NCBI GenBank assembly: GCA_900318645.1
Contig: ONLH01000022.1
Coordinates: 1 to 55,264, forward strand
DNA length: 55,264 nt
Source: an uncultured Prevotellaceae bacterium
GTDB lineage: Bacteria > Bacteroidota > Bacteroidia > Bacteroidales > Muribaculaceae
Direction: 5' to 3'
This document shows, one piece after another, positions 1,045 to 9,538 of the stretch. Position 1 is the first letter of the stretch. Each line of letters starts with the position of its first letter. Position numbers and translations under genes: made by a program. The notes under the pieces are model-generated. The model did no database searches and was not told where the DNA came from. It saw only the letters and a list, made by a program, of their open reading frames with translations.

Positions 1045-1776
1045 TTAGTCTTTTTCAATGAGGCCGAGTTCATGGAGGCAGCCTTCACGGTTGAGAAGGA
1101 AGCCATAAAGGTCACGATAGACACTACAGTCGCGATATTGTGTGGGTACTAATTGGCCGTCCCTGATTTCGTGGATGGATGCGTTTGGAAAAGAAAGAAT
1201 AACGGGTGAGTGGGTGGCGATGATGATTTGGGCTCCTTTCTTGACGACATCTTTGATCCATAGCAGGAACAGCAACTGGTTTTGGAAGGAGAGCGCCGCC
1301 TCGGGCTCGTCAAAGATGTAAATGCCCTTACCGGTCAGCCTGTGTTCAAGCAGAGCCATGAATCCTTCACCGTGTGAGAATTCGTGGAAATTAAGATAGT
1401 CATAGTATTTGTTTAGACCACGGCGATTGATTTCGGTGATGACATTGTAGTAACTCTCGGCCCTGAAGAAATACGTATCACTATATCTCAGGCTTGCTTG
1501 GGATGCGATCAGTGCGTCATACAGTGATGAATGGGTCTCTTCGGTATGGAAGTTGAAATGACGGGAGCCGCCTTCGGGATTGATACGCAGCAAAACAGCA
1601 ATCGCTTCGAGCAACGTCGATTTTCCCGATCCGTTGCCTCCAACGATATAGGTCACCGACTTCTCAAATCTAAACTCAGCAAAGTCTCTAATCACTGGAA
1701 TGGAGAATGGGTATTTGCTCGTATCCCATTCCCCTTCTCGTCTCCTGATTCGTCTTAAATAGATATTCTCTTTCAT
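1045..1776 (-). CDS. AAA/ABC-like single-domain ATPase (COG3910-type)
   Basis: About 243 residues. The Walker A motif is GGNGSGKST, close to the N-terminus. A degenerate ABC-like signature (SHGEG) precedes Walker B (IYIFDEPEAAL), followed by the switch histidine motif IIATHSPVI. This SMC/OLD-like layout, with no membrane partner beside it, matches the soluble predicted ATPases of the AAA_21/COG3910 group, whose biological role is mostly unknown; some relatives sit in defence or mobile loci. The frame is open back to an ATG at 1848, but a TATCTTTG promoter element lies at 1797-1804, inside that extension, so the ATG at 1776 (MKENIYLRRIRRR) is the better start. It is transcribed against its left neighbours. 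Confidence 0.85.
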   Translation of the reverse strand: MKENIYLRRIRRREGEWDTSKYPFSIPVIRDFAEFRFEKSVTYIVGGNGSGKSTLLEAIAVLLRINPEGGSRHFNFHTEETHSSLYDALIASQASLRYSDTYFFRAESYYNVITEINRRGLNKYYDYLNFHEFSHGEGFMALLEHRLTGKGIYIFDEPEAALSFQNQLLFLLWIKDVVKKGAQIIIATHSPVILSFPNASIHEIRDGQLVPTQYRDCSVYRDLYGFLLNREGCLHELGLIEKD

Positions 1777-1796
1777 GACCAAATGGCATTTTGCCG

Positions 1797-1804
1797 CAAA
1801 GATA
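1797..1804 (-). promoter_or_regulatory. Promoter -7 element for the COG3910-type ATPase
   Basis: The minus strand reads TATCTTTG, a perfect match to the Bacteroidetes primary-sigma -7 box TAnnTTTG, about 20 bp upstream of the ATG at 1776. I see no clear TTTG -33 box at the right distance. Its position excludes the longer start at 1848. Confidence 0.5.
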
Positions 1805-2005
1805 ACTCGCTCCAATGCCACATTTCGGCACACCAAAACAAAATACATTTAATCACTTGCCTTGAGGGTGTCTATCCCTAGAAAATGTTGACAGATTTGA
1901 GAGCGATTAACTAAGTTGGTTTACACTAATTTTATCGTTCGCCTAAACCGGGTTGACAATTTGGCGGTTTTATCACTGAATGGGTTTACAGCTCACGAAA
2001 CATCG

Positions 2006-2055
2006 TTTTATTTTTCTGGAATAACCCATTTTACCCTCATCCCAGAAAAATAAAA
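2006..2055. repeat. Perfect 14-bp inverted repeat (hairpin)
   Basis: The left arm TTTTATTTTTCTGG (2006-2019) is the exact reverse complement of the right arm CCAGAAAAATAAAA (2042-2055), with 22 bp between. AT-rich ends give runs of T on either strand, so it could be a bidirectional terminator for the ATPase promoter region or a protein-binding inverted repeat. Confidence 0.6.
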
Positions 2056-2071
2056 GCACATTTTTACCATA

Positions 2072-2117
2072 AAAATCAGCCATTTTCGAGATTTTTTTTT
2101 GAAAACGGCTGACTTTT
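2072..2117. repeat. Imperfect hairpin
   Basis: AAAATCAGCCATTTTC (2072-2087) pairs with GAAAACGGCTGACTTTT (2101-2117) apart from small mismatches, across a short T-rich loop. It lies 17 bp right of the preceding inverted repeat, so the two form a hairpin pair. Confidence 0.45.
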
Positions 2118-2171
2118 CAGAGGCTGTTTTATTTGCTTTTACCTGATTTTAAAGCAATTACAATTTTGAAA

Positions 2172-2450
2172 AACAAAAAAAAAGAAGACGAGACCGACAC
2201 CTCTTCGGTGTTAGCCTCGTTACTTCTTTTCCAGACTCGCTGTCGGTTTGATTATGCCGTCTTGAGGGCACGGTCTCCCCGTCAGGTGATAACGCCTGGT
2301 GATGGCGGTGCTGGGCGACTCTTCGCCTCCCAGCCCATACCATCGGGTTTTATATGTTGTCTTTGCCCCCATGCCGCCAGCGTGCTCAATGTTGCCAGCG
2401 GTCATCTCGGGGGCATGTGTTTCTCTTGCATATAAGGCTGCTAGGCGATC
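2172..2450 (-). ncRNA. Candidate structured non-coding RNA with intrinsic terminator
   Basis: Read on the minus strand, this segment can form successive stems. TGCCCCC pairs with GGGGGCA around a loop with two CGCTGGC copies (about 2360-2420). GCTGGG-CGA pairs with TCG-CCCAGC (about 2309-2334). A long terminal stem-loop (about 2179-2230) has an ACACC/GGTGT tip, ACGAG/CTCGT below it and AAGAAG/CTTCTT at the base. That terminal stem is followed on the minus strand by nine U residues, the form of an intrinsic terminator. No protein is needed to explain the segment. I do not recognise it as tmRNA, RNase P RNA, SRP RNA or 6S RNA. The 5' end is a guess. Confidence 0.35.
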
Positions 2451-2495
2451 TCAGACGGACATATTATAAAATGGGATTTTATATTACTTTTTTGC

Positions 2496-2583
2496 TGTTA
2501 GACTTGTTATATAACACGTGTTAGATGGTGTTAACTATATGAATTTTAAACTGTTAACAATCTAACGTGTTAGACGTGTTAGA
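2496..2583. repeat. Cluster of TGTTA repeats (iteron-like)
   Basis: Seven TGTTA-containing units start at 2496, 2505, 2519, 2529, 2552, 2568 and 2577. Four are TGTTAGA. CGTGTTAGA occurs at 2517, 2566 and 2575, the last two being head-to-tail. A perfect 12-bp palindrome TAACACGTGTTA covers 2512-2523. The surrounding 130 bp are AT-rich. Such tandem short repeats next to AT-rich DNA are typical of plasmid origins bound by Rep proteins or of partition/operator arrays. Here the neighbours include a ParB-fold protein and a P-loop ATPase. Function is inferred. Confidence 0.45.
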
Positions 2584-2713
2584 TATTACCTTCTCTTCAC
2601 TCCTGTGTTGCTGAGAGAACTGGAATTTGGTGATATGACTTTCATGCGCCTCGCCCGTCATGCCGCTAGGAGCGGCGTTAAGCGCAGATGCTATTTATTT
2701 GCGGTAACCAACA

Positions 2714-2866
2714 ATGCGATATAACCCGAACTACGTGGTCGGTATGCTGGAGGCGCTTGGAACATCATTCACGGGTGAGCGGCCGCACGGCACCGGACAA
2801 CGTATACCGGCAACGACTAGAAACGGACTCGCAGAGGGCACTACCTTGGCTGGATTGACACTCTAA
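2714..2866 (+). CDS. Possible 50-residue small protein
   Basis: An ATG-initiated frame of 50 codons (MRYNPNYVVGMLEALG at the start) lies in otherwise non-coding DNA. Its stop overlaps another short ATG frame (TAATG). It has no recognisable motif, no clear ribosome site and could be chance or a remnant of a larger gene. The minus strand over the right-hand end also has a short open frame. Reported only because the composition of its first half looks protein-like. Confidence 0.15.
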   Translation: MRYNPNYVVGMLEALGTSFTGERPHGTGQRIPATTRNGLAEGTTLAGLTL

Positions 2867-2983
2867 TGGTGGAGCAGATGCGATGATGTCCTATTGCAAT
2901 GCGAACACCCGCACGGCGAAAGCCAACGGATAGTACGGCTCCAGCGCCAGGCTGCTAATACTCACCATAAAAAGGTACAAAAA

Positions 2984-3007
2984 AAAGGAGGTCGATAAAC
3001 CTCCTTT
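2984..3007 (-). terminator. Intrinsic terminator after the membrane-tethered ATPase
   Basis: AAAGGAGGT (2984-2992) and ACCTCCTTT (2999-3007) form a perfect 9-bp stem with a 6-base loop. On the minus strand it is followed by a run of eight Ts. It lies 19 bp beyond the stop of the gene at 3026. Confidence 0.8.
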
Positions 3008-3025
3008 CACTAGCAAGCAGCTTAA

Positions 3026-4801
3026 TTATTTCTTTTTGGGTTTCAAACCCTCTTTGACCAGGATTCTCGCTACCTGAGTGTCTTCAAGTCCCAACTTTCC
3101 GGCAATTTGATGTTGATTGAGCCCATTCCCATTGTCCCAAAGAAGTAATACATCGGCACGGCGTTGCTCCATCTTGTCGTCCTCGGCCGTAGGCGGGTTA
3201 TAAGGAGCCTGACCGCCTTGTCGGTGTAATCGCTTTCGGGGGACGCGTTCTTTTCTCTTGAAGTTTTGTACCATCTTATTGTGCTCGGCTCCAAACTTCA
3301 GTAGATAACGGGACATGCAGTATTCAGCGGCGTAGATTACCATCTGGATAACCTGATCCATCTTCTCCGTGTCGCCATCAGGTTGAATCATCATATGCAT
3401 AACAATTCCTATATGCATAGCAATGGTGGAAATACGCCAACGGATCAGTTTTCTGACCTCGTCATTGGTCTCTCTGGACAATTCAACCTGCTTCATTTCC
3501 CATCGGTTTAATTCTGACATCACATAGTCAAAATCCTTGATCTCTACCAAATCCACGGCAGTGTCCTCTCCGTCATCAGTGGTGAATACGTACTTATGCC
3601 GATATTCATCGATATGGTCTCTAATGAGTTCAAGTTCTGGGCCCTCATGAAGGCTGATGGGAGCGTCATTGCTATCGCTCATGAGAGGTAACACGCACCA
3701 ACAAACCCTGGAAGCGCCGCCACCAGCGACAGTGGCTATATTCTTGATGAATGTTTCAACATTTTCATCAGCGCCAGTGAGAGTTATGTTCGCCACAGCT
3801 TCGCAAGATCCATTCTGCTCTTTATGCATTCGCCCGCGGCTCACATCATCGTTATCGAAAGCCTTACGCAGAATGACTGAGAGGTCTTTGTTTGTGGCAG
3901 TGGCAATTTCACTGTCGAAGATATAGACATGCACGCCTTGGTTGGACTCCAAGATTTGCTGGAGCCTAGCGCTTGAAATGTCTATCCCTACCGTCTGGAT
4001 AATGAGTTTTTTCTCATTATCTTTGGCTTTTGGGGAATTCAACTTCCGCTTGTCCTCATCGATCACGCGGCGGAATAACATCTGATGCACGTTACGGAAC
4101 AGACTCTTTCCCATTCCCGGCATGGCTTCGATGACGACCTGGAGGTTGGGGCGGCGTATCTCATCATCTCTCTTCTTGGCTATCACCCGCGAGAAACAAT
4201 AGGCACCATACATGGAACATAGGTGAAAGAACATTGCGGGAGCAATGTCAGGGTCAGACCCGCTAATCACCGTTGCAAAGTCATCGGGCAGAGCGTCAAT
4301 CGGGAGAGGGTGATTTCTGTTGAACTCATCCAACCACCAATCGTTGTCATCTGGGTCCGAGGAGTCACCGTATGACTGCTGCGAGCATTGGCGTGCTTCC
4401 TGTTGCGCTTTCGCCTCAGCTTTGGCTTTCGCCTTAGCTTCAACTACACGGATGTTAGCCTCGGCCTGAGCGTTAATCTTTGCAATGTCAGCTTCTTTCC
4501 TGGCATTGATGCGCTTGATCTCTTCCTGGGCCTTCTTTCGGTCTTTCATGTAATTGAACAGACCTTTTACGCCCCTATAGCCAGCGACGCTGCCAAAGAT
4601 AATACCGCCAGCGGTCATACAGATGCGGACGACTTTGCCGAGATTTGACACCGACCCGGTATAGTCAGTTGGGCCGACGCCAATCTTCACGTAGTCGTTG
4701 TCTTCTTGCTCGAGTTCGTCGAATGACTTCTCGTCGTCGGGCGGAATAATGTCGTCGAGGCCTCCGCTAAAGATTCTTCCAATATTTCTAAAGAATCTCA
4801 T
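3026..4801 (-). CDS. Membrane-anchored coiled-coil P-loop protein (DUF3987-like), with C-terminal HTH
   Basis: A 591-residue protein with an unusual layout: acidic N-terminus; one membrane segment at about 56-75; a Lys/Ala/Glu-rich coiled coil at about 85-137; a P-loop (AMPGMGKS, about 226-233); a Walker B-like strand (HVYIFDSE, about 291-298); and a sensor-like LTGADENVETFIKN (about 341-354). The last 35 residues look like a helix-turn-helix (NQHQIAGKLGLEDTQVARIL). The core resembles the DUF3987 helicase/primase-associated ATPases carried by Bacteroides mobile elements, but a membrane anchor plus coiled coil is not usual for them. A role in replication, partition or packaging is possible. 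It is the last gene of a leftward set and is followed by a strong terminator. Confidence 0.6.
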   Translation of the reverse strand: MRFFRNIGRIFSGGLDDIIPPDDEKSFDELEQEDNDYVKIGVGPTDYTGSVSNLGKVVRICMTAGGIIFGSVAGYRGVKGLFNYMKDRKKAQEEIKRINARKEADIAKINAQAEANIRVVEAKAKAKAEAKAQQEARQCSQQSYGDSSDPDDNDWWLDEFNRNHPLPIDALPDDFATVISGSDPDIAPAMFFHLCSMYGAYCFSRVIAKKRDDEIRRPNLQVVIEAMPGMGKSLFRNVHQMLFRRVIDEDKRKLNSPKAKDNEKKLIIQTVGIDISSARLQQILESNQGVHVYIFDSEIATATNKDLSVILRKAFDNDDVSRGRMHKEQNGSCEAVANITLTGADENVETFIKNIATVAGGGASRVCWCVLPLMSDSNDAPISLHEGPELELIRDHIDEYRHKYVFTTDDGEDTAVDLVEIKDFDYVMSELNRWEMKQVELSRETNDEVRKLIRWRISTIAMHIGIVMHMMIQPDGDTEKMDQVIQMVIYAAEYCMSRYLLKFGAEHNKMVQNFKRKERVPRKRLHRQGGQAPYNPPTAEDDKMEQRRADVLLLWDNGNGLNQHQIAGKLGLEDTQVARILVKEGLKPKKK

Positions 4802-4834
4802 GACATTTAATGTCTTAAATTTTTAATAATGTCA

Positions 4835-4878
4835 CAACAGGACTTTCCTGTTGCGGTGTTCCCAGGTCACCCGGGAAC
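4835..4878. repeat. Two adjacent hairpins between element genes
   Basis: CAACAGG/CCTGTTG (4835-4853) and GTTCCC/GGGAAC (4858-4878) lie between the Gp37-like gene and the start of the ATPase gene. Neither has a U-tract in the transcribed direction, so they look like leader-RNA structures of the downstream (ATPase) gene rather than terminators. Confidence 0.4.
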
Positions 4879-4902
4879 AAAAAAATGTAAATTAATAAAG
4901 CA

Positions 4903-4922
4903 TGGGCGGCGTGAACCGCCCA
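4903..4922 (-). terminator. Probable terminator or hairpin after the Gp37-like gene
   Basis: TGGGCGG (4903-4909) pairs with CCGCCCA (4916-4922) around a 6-base loop, 14 bp beyond the stop at 4937. The minus strand continues into an AT-rich, T-containing stretch, so it may attenuate transcription into the ATPase gene. Confidence 0.45.
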
Positions 4923-4936
4923 CGCATAATAAAGGA

Positions 4937-5692
4937 TTAGTAGATCAAACGCGGTGTCGGGTAGTTGTGATACTCAACACCACCGAGCAGGTGGCCGTTG
5001 GCCTCCTTGCTGCGACGAACGTTGTCCTCGCCCCAGGTACCCCATTGCTTGAAAAAGAATGAGGTGCCGCTGGCGTCGGCGAGTTGCTTCAGGTTCATCG
5101 CCCACGATTCTTCCATGGGACGCGCACGCTGACCGCTCTCCCCACCGACGATGATCCAATCAATGCCGGTCAGGTCCAAGCCCTCGTTAGCCAGGTCACT
5201 AAGGCAAGGCTCAATGCTCAGCCAGCGGACGGGAGCAGCAATGCCGCGCAAGTCATCGACTCTGACGAGAGACTTCTTGCAACCACATGTTACACCAAGC
5301 CAAGCATTAGCTGGGCAACGGTGCGAGCTGAAGTAGCTGGCCATACGGGCGCTGCGCTTGGTGAGGATCTGATAAGTGATCCAGGGCGTGCTCATGACGA
5401 CCCCAATTACCTGATCGATAAACGACTCACGCACGTCATCGTGGAACAGGTCTCCCATTGAAGGCAGGAAGCACATGAACTCCTTGTTGGGATCCGTAGC
5501 CAACGGCTCTTTCAAGGCTTCGGGGTGACATGTCACCTTGAAACCGTTGCTGTAGCGCGGATTGCCCATACCCTCTAGGCGCGAGGCCATAGAGCGAGCA
5601 TAGCAGTTGTCACATTCATCCGTACCAGCATGAGAGCAGCCCGTGACAGGGTTCCAGGACATTTCAGTCCAAGAAATTAAAGTATTTGTCAT
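4937..5692 (-). CDS. Phage Gp37/Gp68-family protein (DUF5131)
   Basis: A protein of 251 residues from the ATG at 5692. The N-terminus has the family hallmark SWTEMSWNPVTGC followed by a three-cysteine cluster (C-x7-C-x2-C, ending DNCYA), then YQILTKRSARM and, near the C-terminus, WIIVGGESGQRARPM and FFFKQWGTWG. These are the conserved blocks of the Gp37/Gp68 (PF07505) family found in phages and mobile elements; relatives are sometimes paired with three-Cys-motif partner (TcmP) proteins. The biochemical function is not known to me. The frame is open to 5938, but the ATG at 5692 overlaps the stop of a short upstream frame in an ATGA junction, the signature of translational coupling, and the extension has no family similarity. 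Confidence 0.8.
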   Translation of the reverse strand: MTNTLISWTEMSWNPVTGCSHAGTDECDNCYARSMASRLEGMGNPRYSNGFKVTCHPEALKEPLATDPNKEFMCFLPSMGDLFHDDVRESFIDQVIGVVMSTPWITYQILTKRSARMASYFSSHRCPANAWLGVTCGCKKSLVRVDDLRGIAAPVRWLSIEPCLSDLANEGLDLTGIDWIIVGGESGQRARPMEESWAMNLKQLADASGTSFFFKQWGTWGEDNVRRSKEANGHLLGGVEYHNYPTPRLIY

Positions 5693-5829
5693 TGGCATAA
5701 TTCTGTTTTGGTTAATAATTCGGCTAATTGACTCGTCGTGAGCATCTGTTCGGTCGATGCTGCTACTGCACCTGCGCGAGCCACGCCACCGGCGTGACTG
5801 GCGCGGAGAAAACATATGATCTTCGTCAT
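5689..5829 (-). CDS. Small protein translationally coupled to the Gp37-like gene
   Basis: A 46-codon frame from the ATG at 5829 (MTKIICFLRASHAGG at the start, ending LLTKTELCQ). It could instead begin at 5946, giving 85 residues. Its TGA shares four bases (ATGA) with the start of the DUF5131 gene. The end of the peptide (TSQLAELLTKTEL) resembles an amphipathic helix. No family is recognised. It may be a genuine small partner or simply a leader that couples translation of the downstream gene. A GCC-rich hairpin (CCACGCC/GGCGTGa) lies within it. Confidence 0.35.
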   Translation of the reverse strand: MTKIICFLRASHAGGVARAGAVAASTEQMLTTSQLAELLTKTELCQ

Positions 5830-6150
5830 AGTATCTAAATTGTGACATTGGTTGATTCCAACGCCGTTGATTGGGTGGGCTCGCTTTACGACAGGGGGAG
5901 CGCCAAACCCAGCCGATTTTAGTGATCGGTACACCCACGATGTCAAGGATCGCTTGCTGCCGTTAGGGTAGGGCCGGTAGCTTGCCCCGTGGAATTAGAT
6001 CTAAGCTGTGCAGTGAGGCGAATAGTCTTCAATGACTTCTTGCCCTGCAAGCGGAGACTTTAAACTTTTTCTGTAACTTCAATATTTAAAGCCCCTCGCC
6101 GTCAAGACGGCTTCCCCGCGACGAGGGGCGTGCTTAGCAAAAGTTTGTTA
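5830..6150. other. Leader and terminator interval between ParB-like and Gp37-like genes
   Basis: Apart from the possible longer start of the small coupled gene (to 5946) and the terminator at 6091-6129, I see no supported gene. The stretch would be the 5' leader of the Gp37-like transcript. No clear TAnnTTTG promoter was found here. Confidence 0.4.
6091..6129 (-). terminator. Terminator after the ParB-like gene
   Basis: GCCCCTCG (6091-6098) pairs with CGAGGGGC (6122-6129), enclosing a second perfect small hairpin CCGTC-aa-GACGG (6099-6110). On the minus strand the compound stem is followed by TTTAAATATT. It lies about 20 bp beyond the stop at 6151. Confidence 0.65.
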
Positions 6151-7308
6151 TTACTTGTCGCGATTGTACATTTCGTCGAGGATGCCGTGGATGACCTGCT
6201 CGCGGGTTTGAGACTCGGTCTTCTCGGCGTTGTTGATGCGCTCGCTGTCCTGTGCAGACATGCCGGTAAACATATTGATTACCTTGTCTGCGACATCAAT
6301 GCGCTTATCCTCGTCTGCCTCGTGGATCTTCTTGGCCGTCCAGTGCCAAATAAAGGTACCTTTGAGGACCTTGTTCTTGATGGGCGCGTCCTTCTCGATG
6401 CCGAACCCCTCACACACGCCATCGAAGATCATCTGATAGAGCTCGATATCCTCGGTGTCACCGTCGTTGAAGATACCGGGCAACTTACCCGCCAGGAGGG
6501 CTTGAACGTCCGCTTTCTTCACCTCCTTGCCCTTGGTGGCAAAGCCTGCAGCCTTAGGGGTGAGGCCACGGTCGATTTTGCCGGCGTAGGCGGCGATAAT
6601 CTTGTTGGCCTTCTCGGTGTCCAGGAAGTCGCGAGCGAAATCCTTGGTCTTGGTGGGCACATTGTCGATGTTGATGTGGCGATACTGGTCCTTGAACACC
6701 TTGGGATCGGTGATGTGGCGATAAGCGAACGTATACTCGAAGGGCTTCTCTTTTTGGGCATCGCCCTTGCCCTTGGACTTGCGCTTCTCCTCCTTAATGC
6801 GCTCTACCTCGGCAAGCCATGCCCAGAACCTGGTGTTGCCCTCCATGATCACCAGCATGCCGAAGGTCTCCTCACGGTTCTTGACCTCTTCACCCGTGAT
6901 GGGATTGAAAAGTACGTAACCGGCATCGAAGGCGGCAGTCGCATCGGCGAAGAGGGCGCTTACGAGCATACCATGCTTACGGCATGACCTCTGTTTGGCC
7001 TTGATCTGCCTAGGATCCCTGCGATTCGACTTGATGACGAAAACCTTACCCAAAGTTTTCTTCTTCAAGGTGTGAACCACACGCTCCTTCATCAGTGGCT
7101 TCTGCTCTTGCTCCCCATGATTGGAGCTGGAATCCAGTTCCCCATCTGCAGGTGCGCCACCAACTTCATGCAGGTCGTCTACTTCACCCTCGCACGCGGG
7201 TACATTGTTTATACTCGTAGCTGCGTTGGCAGTTACCTCCTCGTTCAAGGCCTGAGCCTCTACATCGTTTTCGGACAAGCCGAAGTGTTTTGAGATTATA
7301 TTCTCCAT
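6151..7308 (-). CDS. ParB-fold (ParB/Srx N-terminal domain-like) protein
   Basis: A 385-residue protein. The first 80 residues are acidic and look disordered. A ParB-like region follows: KSNRRDPRQIKAKQRSCRKH and HGMLVSALF fit the family's specificity helix pattern, and LVIMEGNTRFWAWLAEVER matches the family's hallmark strand-turn (xxDGxxRxxA), although Asp is replaced by Glu and Arg is retained. The middle (about 170-190) is very basic (RIKEEKRKSKGKGDAQKEK), and the C-terminus is helical. ParB-fold proteins in mobile elements act in partition, transcription or as nucleases; which applies here is unknown. It is the first gene after a strong promoter (7366-7396) with a palindromic operator, so autoregulation is plausible. 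Confidence 0.55.
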   Translation of the reverse strand: MENIISKHFGLSENDVEAQALNEEVTANAATSINNVPACEGEVDDLHEVGGAPADGELDSSSNHGEQEQKPLMKERVVHTLKKKTLGKVFVIKSNRRDPRQIKAKQRSCRKHGMLVSALFADATAAFDAGYVLFNPITGEEVKNREETFGMLVIMEGNTRFWAWLAEVERIKEEKRKSKGKGDAQKEKPFEYTFAYRHITDPKVFKDQYRHINIDNVPTKTKDFARDFLDTEKANKIIAAYAGKIDRGLTPKAAGFATKGKEVKKADVQALLAGKLPGIFNDGDTEDIELYQMIFDGVCEGFGIEKDAPIKNKVLKGTFIWHWTAKKIHEADEDKRIDVADKVINMFTGMSAQDSERINNAEKTESQTREQVIHGILDEMYNRDK

Positions 7309-7344
7309 TTCTGTAAAAATTTATAAATATTAATATCATCATGC

Positions 7345-7396
7345 TCCGATTATCGGAACGCGCTGCAAAACTATAGCTATTTTTTGAGCTGACAAA
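7345..7396 (-). promoter_or_regulatory. Promoter with palindromic operator for the ParB-like gene
   Basis: On the minus strand TTTG (7393-7396), a 19-bp spacer and TAGTTTTG (7366-7373) give a complete Bacteroidetes-type -33/-7 promoter. A 13-bp palindrome TCCGAT-t-ATCGGA (7345-7357) lies just downstream of the expected transcription start, a good repressor position. The gene starts at 7308. Confidence 0.65.
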
Positions 7397-7685
7397 ATGA
7401 TGTTAACTATCTTTTGCATAGTGCTTTATGATTAGAAAAAGTGCCAATTTTTAGGCCTGGCTTATTTGAATCTTATTTAAAACTTATGTATATATTATTT
7501 GTATATTATTTCAAAAATTAAGCTCAAAGAAATGGGTCACAGGATAAGAAAAAGATTAACATTCTTTAACAAAAATCTGCTCTTATCAACCAATGGAAGC
7601 ATAAGAAATGTGTTCATGGCGGCTTTAGGGAGAAATGAACTTGTCCGCTGCCGCCTCGAGTGGTCAAATTGGATAGTTTTGCGTA

Positions 7686-7751
7686 TTTTTCTTGCCGATG
7701 TCGGCAAAAATGGGTATATTTGCAGTGGAATAATGGATTTTTCTTGCCGAT
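7686..7751 (+). promoter_or_regulatory. fic promoter flanked by repeated TTGCCGA operators
   Basis: The -7 box TATATTTG is at 7715-7722. The 14-bp sequence TTTTTCTTGCCGAT occurs exactly twice, at 7686-7699 (upstream) and 7738-7751 (just before the ATG at 7758), 52 bp apart, close to five helical turns. The upstream copy is part of a perfect palindrome TTGCCGA-tg-TCGGCAA (7692-7707). This is the layout expected for a repressor binding on both sides of the promoter; the HTH-Fic protein encoded next is the obvious candidate. Confidence 0.65.
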
Positions 7752-7757
7752 AGAACG

Positions 7758-8648
7758 ATGGAGTATATATCAGTGAAGCAGTTTGCCGAGAAGTTCAATG
7801 TCTCGGAACGCACCGCCCGTAACTACTGTGCGAGCGGGAAGATTGACGGTGCCTATCTCGTGGGTAAGTCGTGGAATATTCCTGCCGATGCTGTTTTGCC
7901 CGGTCGGAAAAAGACTTCAAAGACATCACCCTTACTAAGCGCACTCCAGGAGCAAATGGATGGACGGATTAAGGGCGGTATCTATCATCGTGTTCAGATT
8001 GACCTCACCTATAACTCTAACCACATTGAGGGTAGCCGCCTGACCCACGATCAGACAAGGTATATCTTCGAGACTAACACCATCGGCATTACTGACGACG
8101 CTGTTAATGTGGATGATATCATTGAGACGGCTAACCACTTCCGCTGTTTCGACTGTATCATTGAACAGGCAGGAACGAAATTGACAGAATCGTTCATTAA
8201 GCAGTTGCACCTTATGCTCAAGTCCGGCACGTCCGATTCCCGTAAAACTTGGTTTGCCGTGGGTGACTATAAGCGACTGCCCAATGAGGTGGGTGGTATG
8301 GAGACTGCGGCACCGTCCGACGTTCACCGCCAAGTGAGGGATTTGTTGCAAGAATATAACTTGATTAAGAAGCACTCTCTTGACGATATCATCGATTTTC
8401 ATCAACGTTTCGAGGCAATCCACCCATTCCAGGACGGTAACGGTCGTGTGGGGCGTCTGATTATGTTCAAGGAATGCTTGTCGGCTGGCATCGTTCCCTT
8501 CATCATCACCGAGGACCTGAAGATGTTCTACTACCGAGGCCTTCGAGAATGGCCCCGCATCAAAGGCTTTTTGCGAGACACATGCCTCACGGCCCAAGAT
8601 AACTTCAAAGCCATTCTCGACTACTTCCAGATCAAATACCAAAAATAG
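7758..8648 (+). CDS. HTH-Fic family protein (class II Fic, probable AMPylase)
   Basis: 296 residues. An N-terminal helix-turn-helix of excisionase/MerR style (YISVKQFAEKFNVSERTARN, then a wing-like VGKSWNIPADAV) is joined to a Fic domain. The inhibitory helix motif S-x-x-x-E-G is visible as SNHIEG (about residue 95), and the catalytic loop HPFQDGNGRVGR (HPFxDGNGRxxR) is intact. This marks an active, autoinhibited class II Fic enzyme that transfers AMP (or another nucleotide moiety) to a protein hydroxyl. Relatives with an N-terminal HTH are common in Bacteroidetes and generally regulate themselves. It sits alone, divergent from the mobile-element genes, with a repeated operator at its promoter. 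Its target is unknown. Confidence 0.9.
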   Translation: MEYISVKQFAEKFNVSERTARNYCASGKIDGAYLVGKSWNIPADAVLPGRKKTSKTSPLLSALQEQMDGRIKGGIYHRVQIDLTYNSNHIEGSRLTHDQTRYIFETNTIGITDDAVNVDDIIETANHFRCFDCIIEQAGTKLTESFIKQLHLMLKSGTSDSRKTWFAVGDYKRLPNEVGGMETAAPSDVHRQVRDLLQEYNLIKKHSLDDIIDFHQRFEAIHPFQDGNGRVGRLIMFKECLSAGIVPFIITEDLKMFYYRGLREWPRIKGFLRDTCLTAQDNFKAILDYFQIKYQK

Positions 8649-8995
8649 CATTCTGACCTATCTCCGTTCACACTGTAACATCAAATACGTGTAAATGTTT
8701 GAGACAGACTATTATCCCGCCACGTAAATGTTGTGATTTTGTGGCAAAAGAGACTATGTAGGAACAAAAAAATAATAGGTCATTCTCTTGGTTGAACCAG
8801 GGAAATGGCCTATCTTTGTGGTGGAAAAATCTTTGTACACTTTTTATGTACAGATCTCTTGAAACCCCGATGAATAAAGGGTTTTCATAATTCTCCAAAA
8901 ATTATGAGTTCGATATGGTATGTACAAATACCGTGCCAAAATTAATTGGTGAATTGCTTGGAATACTAAAAAATCATTAAAAAGACTTGGCTTTA
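8649..8995. other. Convergent intergenic interval
   Basis: Between the ends of fic and of the secreted-protein gene. It has a TATCTTTG box at about 8811-8818 (+) followed by an inverted repeat TGTACA-cttttta-TGTACA-like pair (about 8836-8853) and a further GTACA at about 8922, but only tiny frames (6 and 13 codons) downstream. I see no supported gene; a small RNA cannot be excluded. Confidence 0.35.
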
Positions 8996-9538
8996 TTAAT
9001 AGTCTCTGTTCATGAGGTGGGTGAAGGCGGTTTTCAGTTCGTCGGCTTTGCGGGCGGCAAAGACTTCGTCCAATTCGGCGGTGCCGTTGATGGACTTGTG
9101 GACGCCTTGCTCGCCGTAGTAATAACGTGTCTCGTCGGTGCCGCCGTCTAGGGCGTCATTTCTTTGGAAAAAGAACAGCAGTTGCGACTCATCTTCACTA
9201 AAAAGGAACTCTTGATAGAACTTGCGGGCCGCCACGTTGTAGCTGGTAGAGATGAAGTAGAGTTTGTAATAGGGTGTTCCTAGCACGGGGTCCTCATCGA
9301 GCGTGAAATAGTAGTGGATGATTTCCTCGGTGGGACCGCATCCTGGAATAAGGTAATGGCTGACAATTTCCATGTCGCTGCGGGGGACGTTCTGCTCTTG
9401 TGCATGGCTGTTGAATTCTATCTTCTCTTTGGCGGTGCTATAGGCAGCACGGATGCTGGCCATCTCGGCTTTAGTCATCTCTTGGGCACGTGATGGCATG
9501 GTCATCAGCATGATGAATGTGATGAAGTATCTGGTCAT
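8996..9538 (-). CDS. Small secreted protein, unknown function
   Basis: 180 residues starting with a clear signal peptide (MTRYFITFIMLMTMPSRAQ, cleavage probably after SRA). The mature part is acidic and soluble, with Tyr-rich strands (IIHYYFTLDED, YYKLYFISTSYN, ETRYYYGEQGVHKS). No catalytic motif or family is recognised. It starts 16 bp after the CbxX-type ATPase gene on the same strand, so the two are almost certainly co-transcribed and may act together across the inner membrane. Confidence 0.7.
   Translation of the reverse strand: MTRYFITFIMLMTMPSRAQEMTKAEMASIRAAYSTAKEKIEFNSHAQEQNVPRSDMEIVSHYLIPGCGPTEEIIHYYFTLDEDPVLGTPYYKLYFISTSYNVAARKFYQEFLFSEDESQLLFFFQRNDALDGGTDETRYYYGEQGVHKSINGTAELDEVFAARKADELKTAFTHLMNRDY

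Follow-up and report, generated by a model that had tools for sequence, protein, structure and literature searches.

The window analysed here, a 55,264-nucleotide stretch of DNA from an uncultured Prevotellaceae bacterium, contains an interval, 1849–7400, in which the original prediction saw a candidate uncharacterised mobile element. Is this DNA mobile, where does it end, and to what kind of element does it belong? The 1849–7400 stretch is one end of a DNA block inserted at a precise 21-base chromosomal site in this gut bacterium, and the region as a whole is very probably best explained as the right-hand portion of a genomic island that has integrated. Its edge is marked by the following features.

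8740..8892, minus strand: element-side tail of the att site, replacing the native tail of empty sites
8893..8913, minus strand: 21-bp recombination core (attL), where the island ends on the right
8924..8938, minus strand: promoter motif of sigma54-like type, TGGCACG-N4-TTGT, adjoining the core, found by pattern match
8996..9538, minus strand: chromosomal flank gene p8996, present in 14 of 101 genus genomes with at least 64% identity
9555..10766, minus strand: AAA_lid_6 ATPase of the chromosomal flank, assigned by Pfam and locus comparison

The core at 8893–8913 reads TCGAACTCATAATTTTTGGAG. Homology of the left flank alone terminates at the final base of the core in all eight loci compared, and when the flanks are joined at the core they align without a break over 1–821 to four empty sites (L151, L153, L154 and L155) among the eight loci taken into that comparison. 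The tails of these four sites differ from the element-side tail, and positions 8740–8936 of the window are 85.9% identical to locus L019. In two empty sites of another lineage (L177 and L180) right-flank homology begins 20 bases before the core because the promoter side there resembles that of the element, and the exact crossover is therefore less sharp in those two. The motif at 8924–8938, which we take to be sigma54-like from its consensus, is the sole match to the pattern used within the 55-kb window; a related motif belongs to the att site pattern, present in 24 of 101 genus genomes. The island extends rightwards to 8893 and leftwards beyond the window start. The interval first proposed does hold mobile DNA, but the element is larger.

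A matching core is present in the same genome on another contig (C32:60057–60077), where it adjoins a tyrosine recombinase and the conserved gene maa; this site is without the TTGGCA part of the promoter-like motif. The recombinase ORF on C32 is cut by the contig end, and its N-terminal 170 aa match a relative at 97.6%; three recombinase relatives have Phage_integrase Pfam matches (2.6e-16, 3.4e-15 and 2.1e-15). A recombinase adjoins the maa-side site in ten genomes; in the loci read it takes the form of one ORF of 1,036–1,101 aa or a pair of 458–474 and 912–964 aa, and in G629 the recombinase ORFs next to the site are broken. Two junctions and an empty site with one common core, and a recombinase gene adjacent to the att site, both seen here, are the marks of an integrative island of the tyrosine-recombinase type. 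The window's own contig (C17) contains neither a PF00589 tyrosine recombinase nor a tRNA, and no relaxase or phage structural gene was found among ten window proteins scanned with Pfam. The suggestion that an integrase lies beyond the left edge is supported by the recombinase beside the C32 site, with C17 and C32 being separate contigs. We note that these contigs do not join and that the middle of the island is absent from the sequence, which counts against the one-island view.

Three genomes (G000, G222 and G624) carry the module at this same maa site, as would a fixed chromosomal locus that does not move. That reading has next to no probability, as it is already contradicted by the junction data, and also by the empty sites and the other positions. 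The mobility originally proposed is borne out: instead of a single position with no variable boundary, there are recombination junctions and empty sites, and the module has relatives both at the maa site and close to tmRNA and tRNA-Ser genes. At the latter, DUF3853 and ParB-like genes lie ∼2.6–3.2 kb from a tmRNA (L021) or a tRNA-Ser (L020). No direct repeats of tmRNA, tRNA-Ser, tRNA-Arg or tRNA-Ala ends were found in the loci examined, and the data therefore show closeness to those genes, not insertion into them. The island at the maa site in G187 is without the module, and distribution is patchy: out of 297 family genomes, 11 have the ATPase, seven of them as a strong match, and six have the ParB-like protein. 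The part of the island within the window contains the following.

1045..1848, minus strand: AAA_21-type ATPase inside the island, from Pfam and relatives
2170..2466, minus strand: structured RNA of ∼297 nt with a 3' intrinsic-terminator-like hairpin, from fold z, covariation and distribution
2488..2589, no strand assigned: cluster of TGTTAG/CTAACA repeats immediately 5' of the RNA, from repeat counts
3026..4801, minus strand: divergent DUF3987-related P-loop protein with an N-terminal hydrophobic/coiled-coil region and a C-terminal HTH, from Pfam and relatives
4937..5692, minus strand: DUF5131 protein in an exchangeable slot, a candidate defence component
5689..5946, minus strand: small ORF that overlaps the start of DUF5131 (ATGA), from frame comparison in relatives
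6151..7308, minus strand: ParB-like protein of a small family, the six genomes with it including this one
7758..8648, plus strand: HTH-Fic protein, candidate defence gene (cargo), Pfam Fic 2.5e-16, PADLOC PDC-S04 8e-110

On sequence comparison, the P-loop protein is DUF3987-related. The window protein itself falls below the Pfam cut-off for DUF3987 (PF13148; 10.9 bits, E 0.25, against 27 bits), as do relatives in L018, L023 and L019 (23.5, 20.9 and 13.9 bits), whereas those in L020 (53.9 bits, 2.1e-14), L021 (32.5, 6.9e-8) and L022 (31.9, 1e-7) exceed it, making three of the seven members with scores; the window protein matches L020 by tblastn at 8.6e-91. DUF3987 proteins are commonly fused to BT4734-like or primase C-terminal domains, a form seen in all three distant order-wide matches scanned (L087, L090 and L093), and the L022 locus has a separate BT4734-like ORF; the window protein, in contrast, has no primase-like domain and carries its hydrophobic/coiled-coil and HTH regions instead. 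The earlier description of a membrane-tethered P-loop/HTH protein holds in part, with a weak C-terminal HTH_23 match (0.0079) and the DUF3987 kinship agreeing with it and the putative tether corresponding to a hydrophobic stretch and coiled coil seen in the sequence. The AlphaFold model is poor (pLDDT 56), Foldseek returned nothing at E≤0.001, although some short HTH matches were listed, and a sequence search of solved structures gave nothing significant (best E 0.14).

The ParB fold proposed for the 6151–7308 protein is unproven. Neither this protein nor its relative in G254 has a Pfam match, its AlphaFold model is poor (pLDDT 53), Foldseek gave nothing at E≤0.001, and hhalign against four ParB_N-type proteins of this genome returned 0.7% (E 0.08), albeit aligned at the expected place.

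A DNA-binding-like protein adjoining a helicase-like ATPase, together with a repeat cluster, would suit a plasmid or phage-plasmid partition or replication module with iterons, and the cluster is indeed well above chance: four copies of TGTTAG/CTAACA fall within 116 bp, where 0.04 would be expected from the window, and 200 base shuffles gave a maximum of two. It lies just 5' of the RNA, however, which makes it more like an operator or promoter than iterons, and it is likely to be an operator/promoter region; of 14 RNA copies checked, 8 have no such repeats in front of them. The ATPase, the ParB-like protein and the RNA are without a match in phage or plasmid records, a viral-contig scan found no ATPase relative, as none of its five pattern matches could be confirmed, and the unit has att sites and is integrated. 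We consider such a module improbable; of the earlier interpretation the repeats are confirmed, and a role as iterons is unsupported.

A more plausible but still doubtful alternative is that the ParB-like, DUF5131 and DUF3987-related genes form a multi-gene anti-phage defence cassette, cargo rather than backbone. The DUF5131 protein, correctly placed by the original prediction in the Gp37/Gp68 family (Pfam 1.9e-83; 280 bits against a cut-off of 28.9), matches the PADLOC candidates PDC-M30B (7e-84) and PDC-M41B (1.5e-82); the genes around it are also of defence-like kinds (Fic here, AbiL-like genes in L017, a CBASS cyclase and NucC in L019), and islands at the same site can be without the module, as in G187. 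Against this, the ParB-like and P-loop proteins have no PADLOC match, tblastn of the loci found no DUF5131 protein in L019, L020 and L021, where the ParB-like protein and ATPase are kept, and two further sites have DUF3853 and ParB-like genes close to an RNA gene. Where present in relatives, the DUF5131 protein is 71% (L014/L017) or 98% (L015) identical. Radical SAM mobile pair A (TIGR04471) scored 64.6 bits, below the NCBIfam cut-off of 355, and we found no paper combining two of Gp37Gp68, three-Cys-motif, DUF5131 and radical SAM. The DUF5131 ORF sits inside a longer frame, 4937–5938. The small ORF at 5689–5946, once read as a tiny ATGA-coupled protein, is intact in L015 and split over two frames in L014/L017 (one genome), and is therefore probably not a protein. 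Relatives of the AAA_21-type ATPase adjoin maa in G264 (L156) and are in the module's loci in G207, G247 and G283.

The comparative evidence indicates that the structured RNA at 2170–2466, already suspected, is real. Its fold z is −5.83 on the minus strand and −4.06 on the plus strand, and two-sided changes occur in 46 of 64 pairs and all 14 helices of a model-fitted alignment and in 19 of 39 pairs of an independent one. Rfam gave no RNA match for the window at gathering score, for 1850–7760 at E≤5 or for eight further loci at E≤0.5, and viral-contig scans with two RNA patterns gave none. The 33 genomes in which the RNA was found, out of 397 family genomes, all belong to one genus, and among 20 loci examined it lies directly behind a tyrosine recombinase in ten and behind DUF3987 in five. 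Readings as an integron-type attC and as a fixed trxB neighbour were dropped, the RNA being behind several unrelated genes at several sites. It is somewhat unlikely that the RNA has no function of its own and is only an intergenic repeat in dispersed copies, or an elaborate terminator: there are several copies per genome, some cut down to 3' hairpins, mosaic halves occur, and the aligned full copies finish in a terminator-like hairpin, yet the two-sided changes and the link to recombinase and DUF3987-related genes argue otherwise. Tentatively, we suggest that it may represent a new RNA family that works as part of a mobile-element family in a single Bacteroidales genus: it would share a transcript with the tyrosine recombinase or DUF3987-related gene in front of it, and would be required for excision, integration or replication, or control these processes.

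In the island as we picture it, bounded by C17 and C32, the tyrosine recombinase from the other end (C32) would have recombined the element's 21-bp core with an identical chromosomal core within a short transcription-unit-like sequence upstream of maa, giving attL at 8893–8913 and attR beside maa. The element presumably passes through a circle. The ParB-like and DUF3987-related proteins would form its backbone, binding DNA and acting as a helicase or in replication, with DUF5131, Fic and the AAA ATPase as putative defence cargo; the RNA would be transcribed as the operon's 3' end and would regulate or assist it.

Integrative genomic islands and integrative mobilizable elements with tyrosine recombinases resemble this island in site-specific insertion, an att core, a recombinase at one end and variable cargo. 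The differences here lie in the target, a short stretch upstream of maa that has a sigma54-like motif, in the lack of a relaxase among the ten proteins scanned and in the link to an uncatalogued RNA. GInts (PMC5385486) are similar in being islands with large cargo moved site-specifically by element-encoded tyrosine recombinases, with imperfect direct repeats, but are characterised by ginABCD (three recombinases and a fourth product); the loci read here have one long or two recombinase ORFs instead. Candidate structured RNAs of human-gut Bacteroidetes, reported in PMC8040213, likewise lie near phage-integrase domains; they are likened to ours by description and may be identical. None of the titles and abstract openings screened covers this island or this RNA.

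For ruminant-gut Bacteroidales, these results define to the base the boundaries of a family of integrative defence islands, as the empty sites prove, and tie the islands to a structured RNA without a match in the RNA library searched. If the RNA does act in mobility, tyrosine-recombinase elements would have an RNA partner.

The core sequence TCGAACTCATAATTTTTGGAG (21 bp) is found in the host genome (3.6 Mb in 75 contigs, 91% complete) at 8893–8913 of the window, which makes up contig C17 in its entirety (55,264 bp), and at 60057–60077 of another contig, C32. The C32 copy is followed by the tail typical of empty sites (native tail) and then by maa, and next to it is a tyrosine recombinase that the contig end truncates to its N-terminal 170 aa (97.6% identical to a relative); the names maa, EF-P and trxB are ones that we presume from the sequences. 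The window copy marks the right end of an integrated island, and ORFs rightwards of ~9 kb have the appearance of ordinary chromosomal genes. The original prediction of a mobile element at 1849–7400 is borne out, but with its boundaries and parts corrected.

Against two close genomes (loci L014/L017 and L015/L146), identity is ~90–95% from position 2178 onwards; one of them matches up to 7759, and the match with the other reaches 8745 with a brief interruption. Of 101 genus genomes, 66 contain a match to the flank gene p8996 (8996–9538), at 64% identity or more in 14, and the boundary was compared in the 14 loci at this level (the window, L017 and 12 further loci). Four are empty sites (L151, L153, L154 and L155), where a short tail separates p8996 from maa, whose product starts MTEKEKMLA; L147 has the native tail and then a different gene. 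Seven carry the tail of the island end (the window, L017, L146, L148, L149, L150 and L152), with a degenerate copy adjoining p8996 and a clear copy 2.5 kb further in L146, and a partial duplication in L152. Other DNA separates p8996 from the site in L156 and L157.

The left and right flanks were joined at the core, which occupies 401–421 of the resulting 821 bases, and the joined sequence was compared with eight loci. The four empty sites aligned over 1–821 at 77–83% identity and L147 over 1–479, spanning the join; L177 and L180, of a lineage lacking p8996, aligned from 362/363 to 821, and the L157 alignment was split in two pieces. By itself, the left flank stopped aligning at base 421 in all eight loci, and the right flank started at 401 in four loci, 402 in L157, 404 in L147 and 381 in L177 and L180, the promoter side of which is element-like. 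The opposite join, of the element ends, aligned across the core in all five loci tested (92.6–98.9% identity in L019, L152 and L178; ~82% in L146 and L174), and on its left side the core-spanning piece extends only 20 bases past the core. A 44-base site pattern was found at 29 places in 24 of the 101 genus genomes, with none for the reversed control.

The window core is preceded by a motif, the sole match in 55 kb, that we take to be sigma54-like from a presumed consensus, so insertion may exchange the 3′ part of a short predicted transcript; counting against this, the motif's first half is missing from the C32 and G629 site copies. A 130-bp stretch (1869–1998), present at 90–92% identity in L149 and L150 and in parts in L019, L020, L021 and L156, is possibly another junction. 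Further att-like copies (G193:C17:41237–41349, G630:C83:6613–6721 and G629:C44:25581–25700) lie 2.2–2.4 kb from the p8996 site, past an AAA_lid_6-type gene, as though p8996 and the AAA gene had themselves been inserted earlier as a pair.

A recombinase-like ORF adjoins the native-tail core in six of 16 loci (L172, L179, L182, L183, L185 and L187); eight have the native tail without one, and two, L174 and L178, have the element tail, L178 keeping a 112-aa recombinase remnant. Four more loci (L213, L217, L218 and L219) have a recombinase beside the site, for a total of ten genomes. It is a single protein of 1,036–1,101 aa (L182, L183, L185, L218 and L219) or a pair of 458–474 and 912–964 aa (two genes in L179 and L187), and is in pieces in L217. 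Each of the three scanned contains one Phage_integrase domain (Pfam); in the L183 protein, integrase and arm-binding domains lie within the first 434 aa, the remainder being without Pfam assignment. In genome G187 two cores lie 52.6 kb apart on one contig, possibly enclosing one whole island; the first resembles a two-element junction.

The window features concerned are as follows.

1045–1848, minus strand: AAA_21-type AAA ATPase gene
2170–2466, minus strand: structured RNA
3026–4801, minus strand: DUF3987-related P-loop protein, 591 aa
5689–5946: tiny ORF
DUF5131 protein, 251 aa (Pfam 1.9e-83; PADLOC candidates PDC-M30B and PDC-M41B)
6151–7308: ParB-like protein, 385 aa, without Pfam match
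7758–8648: Fic gene, beyond the predicted interval (PADLOC PDC-S04, 8e-110)

The 385-aa product had been called a ParB-fold protein; its G-N-T-R-F motif falls opposite G-E-R-R-Y of ParB_N at an alignment probability of 0.7%, so 'ParB-like' serves here as a name and not as a finding. L015 has an identical copy of the tiny ORF, but in L014 and L017 it is split over two frames. DUF3987 is listed for all eight members of the 591-aa protein's alignment at a permissive E≤10 (Pfam). Single scans, covering L018–L023 and the window, were above the curated cut-off for L020 (2.1e-14), L021 (6.9e-8) and L022 (1e-7), and missed it for L018 (3.7e-5), L023 (2.3e-4), L019 (0.031) and the window copy (0.25).

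The DUF3987-related protein is present in 11 of 297 family genomes (E≤0.001): seven strong matches, the window's own counted, belong to one genus, and four weak ones, in two other genera, cover residues 37–143 only. These weak matches (L009–L012) are short open frames of 186–224 aa, and region 37–143 is the hydrophobic/coiled-coil part. Close relatives occur in a Muribaculaceae bacterium (goat duodenum) and in uncultured Prevotellaceae bacterium RUG362 and RUG379. An order-wide search gave matches in 14 of 294 other genomes; in all three distant ones scanned, DUF3987 is fused with a BT4734-like or primase C-terminal domain. The ParB-like protein is present in six of 297 family genomes, and neither protein had a match among phage or plasmid records.

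These module genes also occur near different RNA genes. In both G247 and G207, a DUF3853 gene and a further ORF separate the ParB-like gene from an RNA gene: the ORF is of 683 aa in G247, where the start of the ParB-like gene lies 3.2 kb from the tmRNA gene, and of 628 aa in G207, where it lies 3.0 kb from tRNA-Ser(GCT); a divergent DUF3987-related gene lies 4.1 kb from tRNA-Arg(CCT) in G256, and in G156 another shares a contig with a recombinase 22 kb away, which is 131 bases from tRNA-Ala. The module is thus not tied to one place; what the sequences show is closeness to these RNA genes, and no direct repeats of tmRNA, tRNA-Ser, tRNA-Arg or tRNA-Ala ends were found in the loci compared.

The minus strand of 2165–2480 folds far better than shuffled sequences (z −5.83), and Rfam has no match over the RNA. 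A covariance model built from ten copies matched 23 times across 28 sources (E≤1e-15), with those ten copies counted. In the model-fitted alignment 94.0% of cells pair, with two-sided changes in 46 of 64 pairs; none of 500 shuffles was as high, and sliding the partners left 31–44% paired. Such an alignment is biased to structure, so 16 copies aligned without structure were also folded, giving 39 pairs with two-sided changes in 19. Under strict filters that lose weak matches, the RNA is found in 33 of 397 family genomes, all in one genus of 30. Some copies are mosaic, L082 and L085 combining the shared 5′ half with a 3′ half of another kind.

Neighbours were surveyed for the best copy per genome in 20 of these 33 genomes (L227–L246), lower-scoring and partial copies being left out. 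The RNA lies 6–107 nt behind a tyrosine recombinase ORF in ten (one case being a 2-nt overlap), 231–572 nt behind a DUF3987-related gene in five, and behind a 345–354-aa protein in four, one of which shares just 24% identity with the others; one locus has none of these neighbours. The recombinases fall into two sequence families, some near-identical, so the ten cases are not ten independent events. The 345–354-aa protein, repeatedly encoded immediately 5′ of the RNA (L076, L077, L237 and L245), starts MTREEF or MTRDEF, and its L076 copy has no Pfam match. Among nine loci with the DUF3987-related gene, the RNA is downstream on the same strand in six (the window, L015, L017, L019, L020 and L021) but not in L018, L022 and L023. 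Several lower-scoring or partial copies (L081, L082 and L084) have unremarkable surroundings, and in L083 the 3′ part lies ~57 nt behind a tRNA-Lys gene. A trxB-like gene near the RNA is 99.7–100% identical among five genomes (L182, at G193:C10; L231, at the L075 site; L077; L085; L243), whereas maa in other genomes is 81–93% identical to the G631 copy, which hints at a second block of DNA that has spread recently.

The predicted TGTTA repeat cluster is real, with four TGTTAG/CTAACA within 116 bp against 0.04 expected, but it fits better as a putative operator or promoter of the RNA than as an iteron origin. Within 200 bp on the 5′ side of the RNA, the repeat occurs three to four times in L015, L017 and L019, once in L020 and in L021, and not at all at the other eight RNA copies checked. 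The stretch 2488–2567 recurs at 82.5% identity near the right end in L146.

Sequence comparison shows integration by site-specific recombination at the core of ~21 bp, with a recombinase at the far end; the same enzyme would carry out excision. The DUF3987-related and ParB-like proteins would serve a free or replicating form, and the RNA would be made as the 3′ end of an operon. DUF5131, Fic and the AAA ATPase are putative defence cargo; relatives carry defence-type genes, AbiL-like in L017 and a CBASS cyclase with NucC in L019 (PADLOC). The island itself adds one more example to a known class of element; what is unusual is the RNA family and its position behind recombinases.
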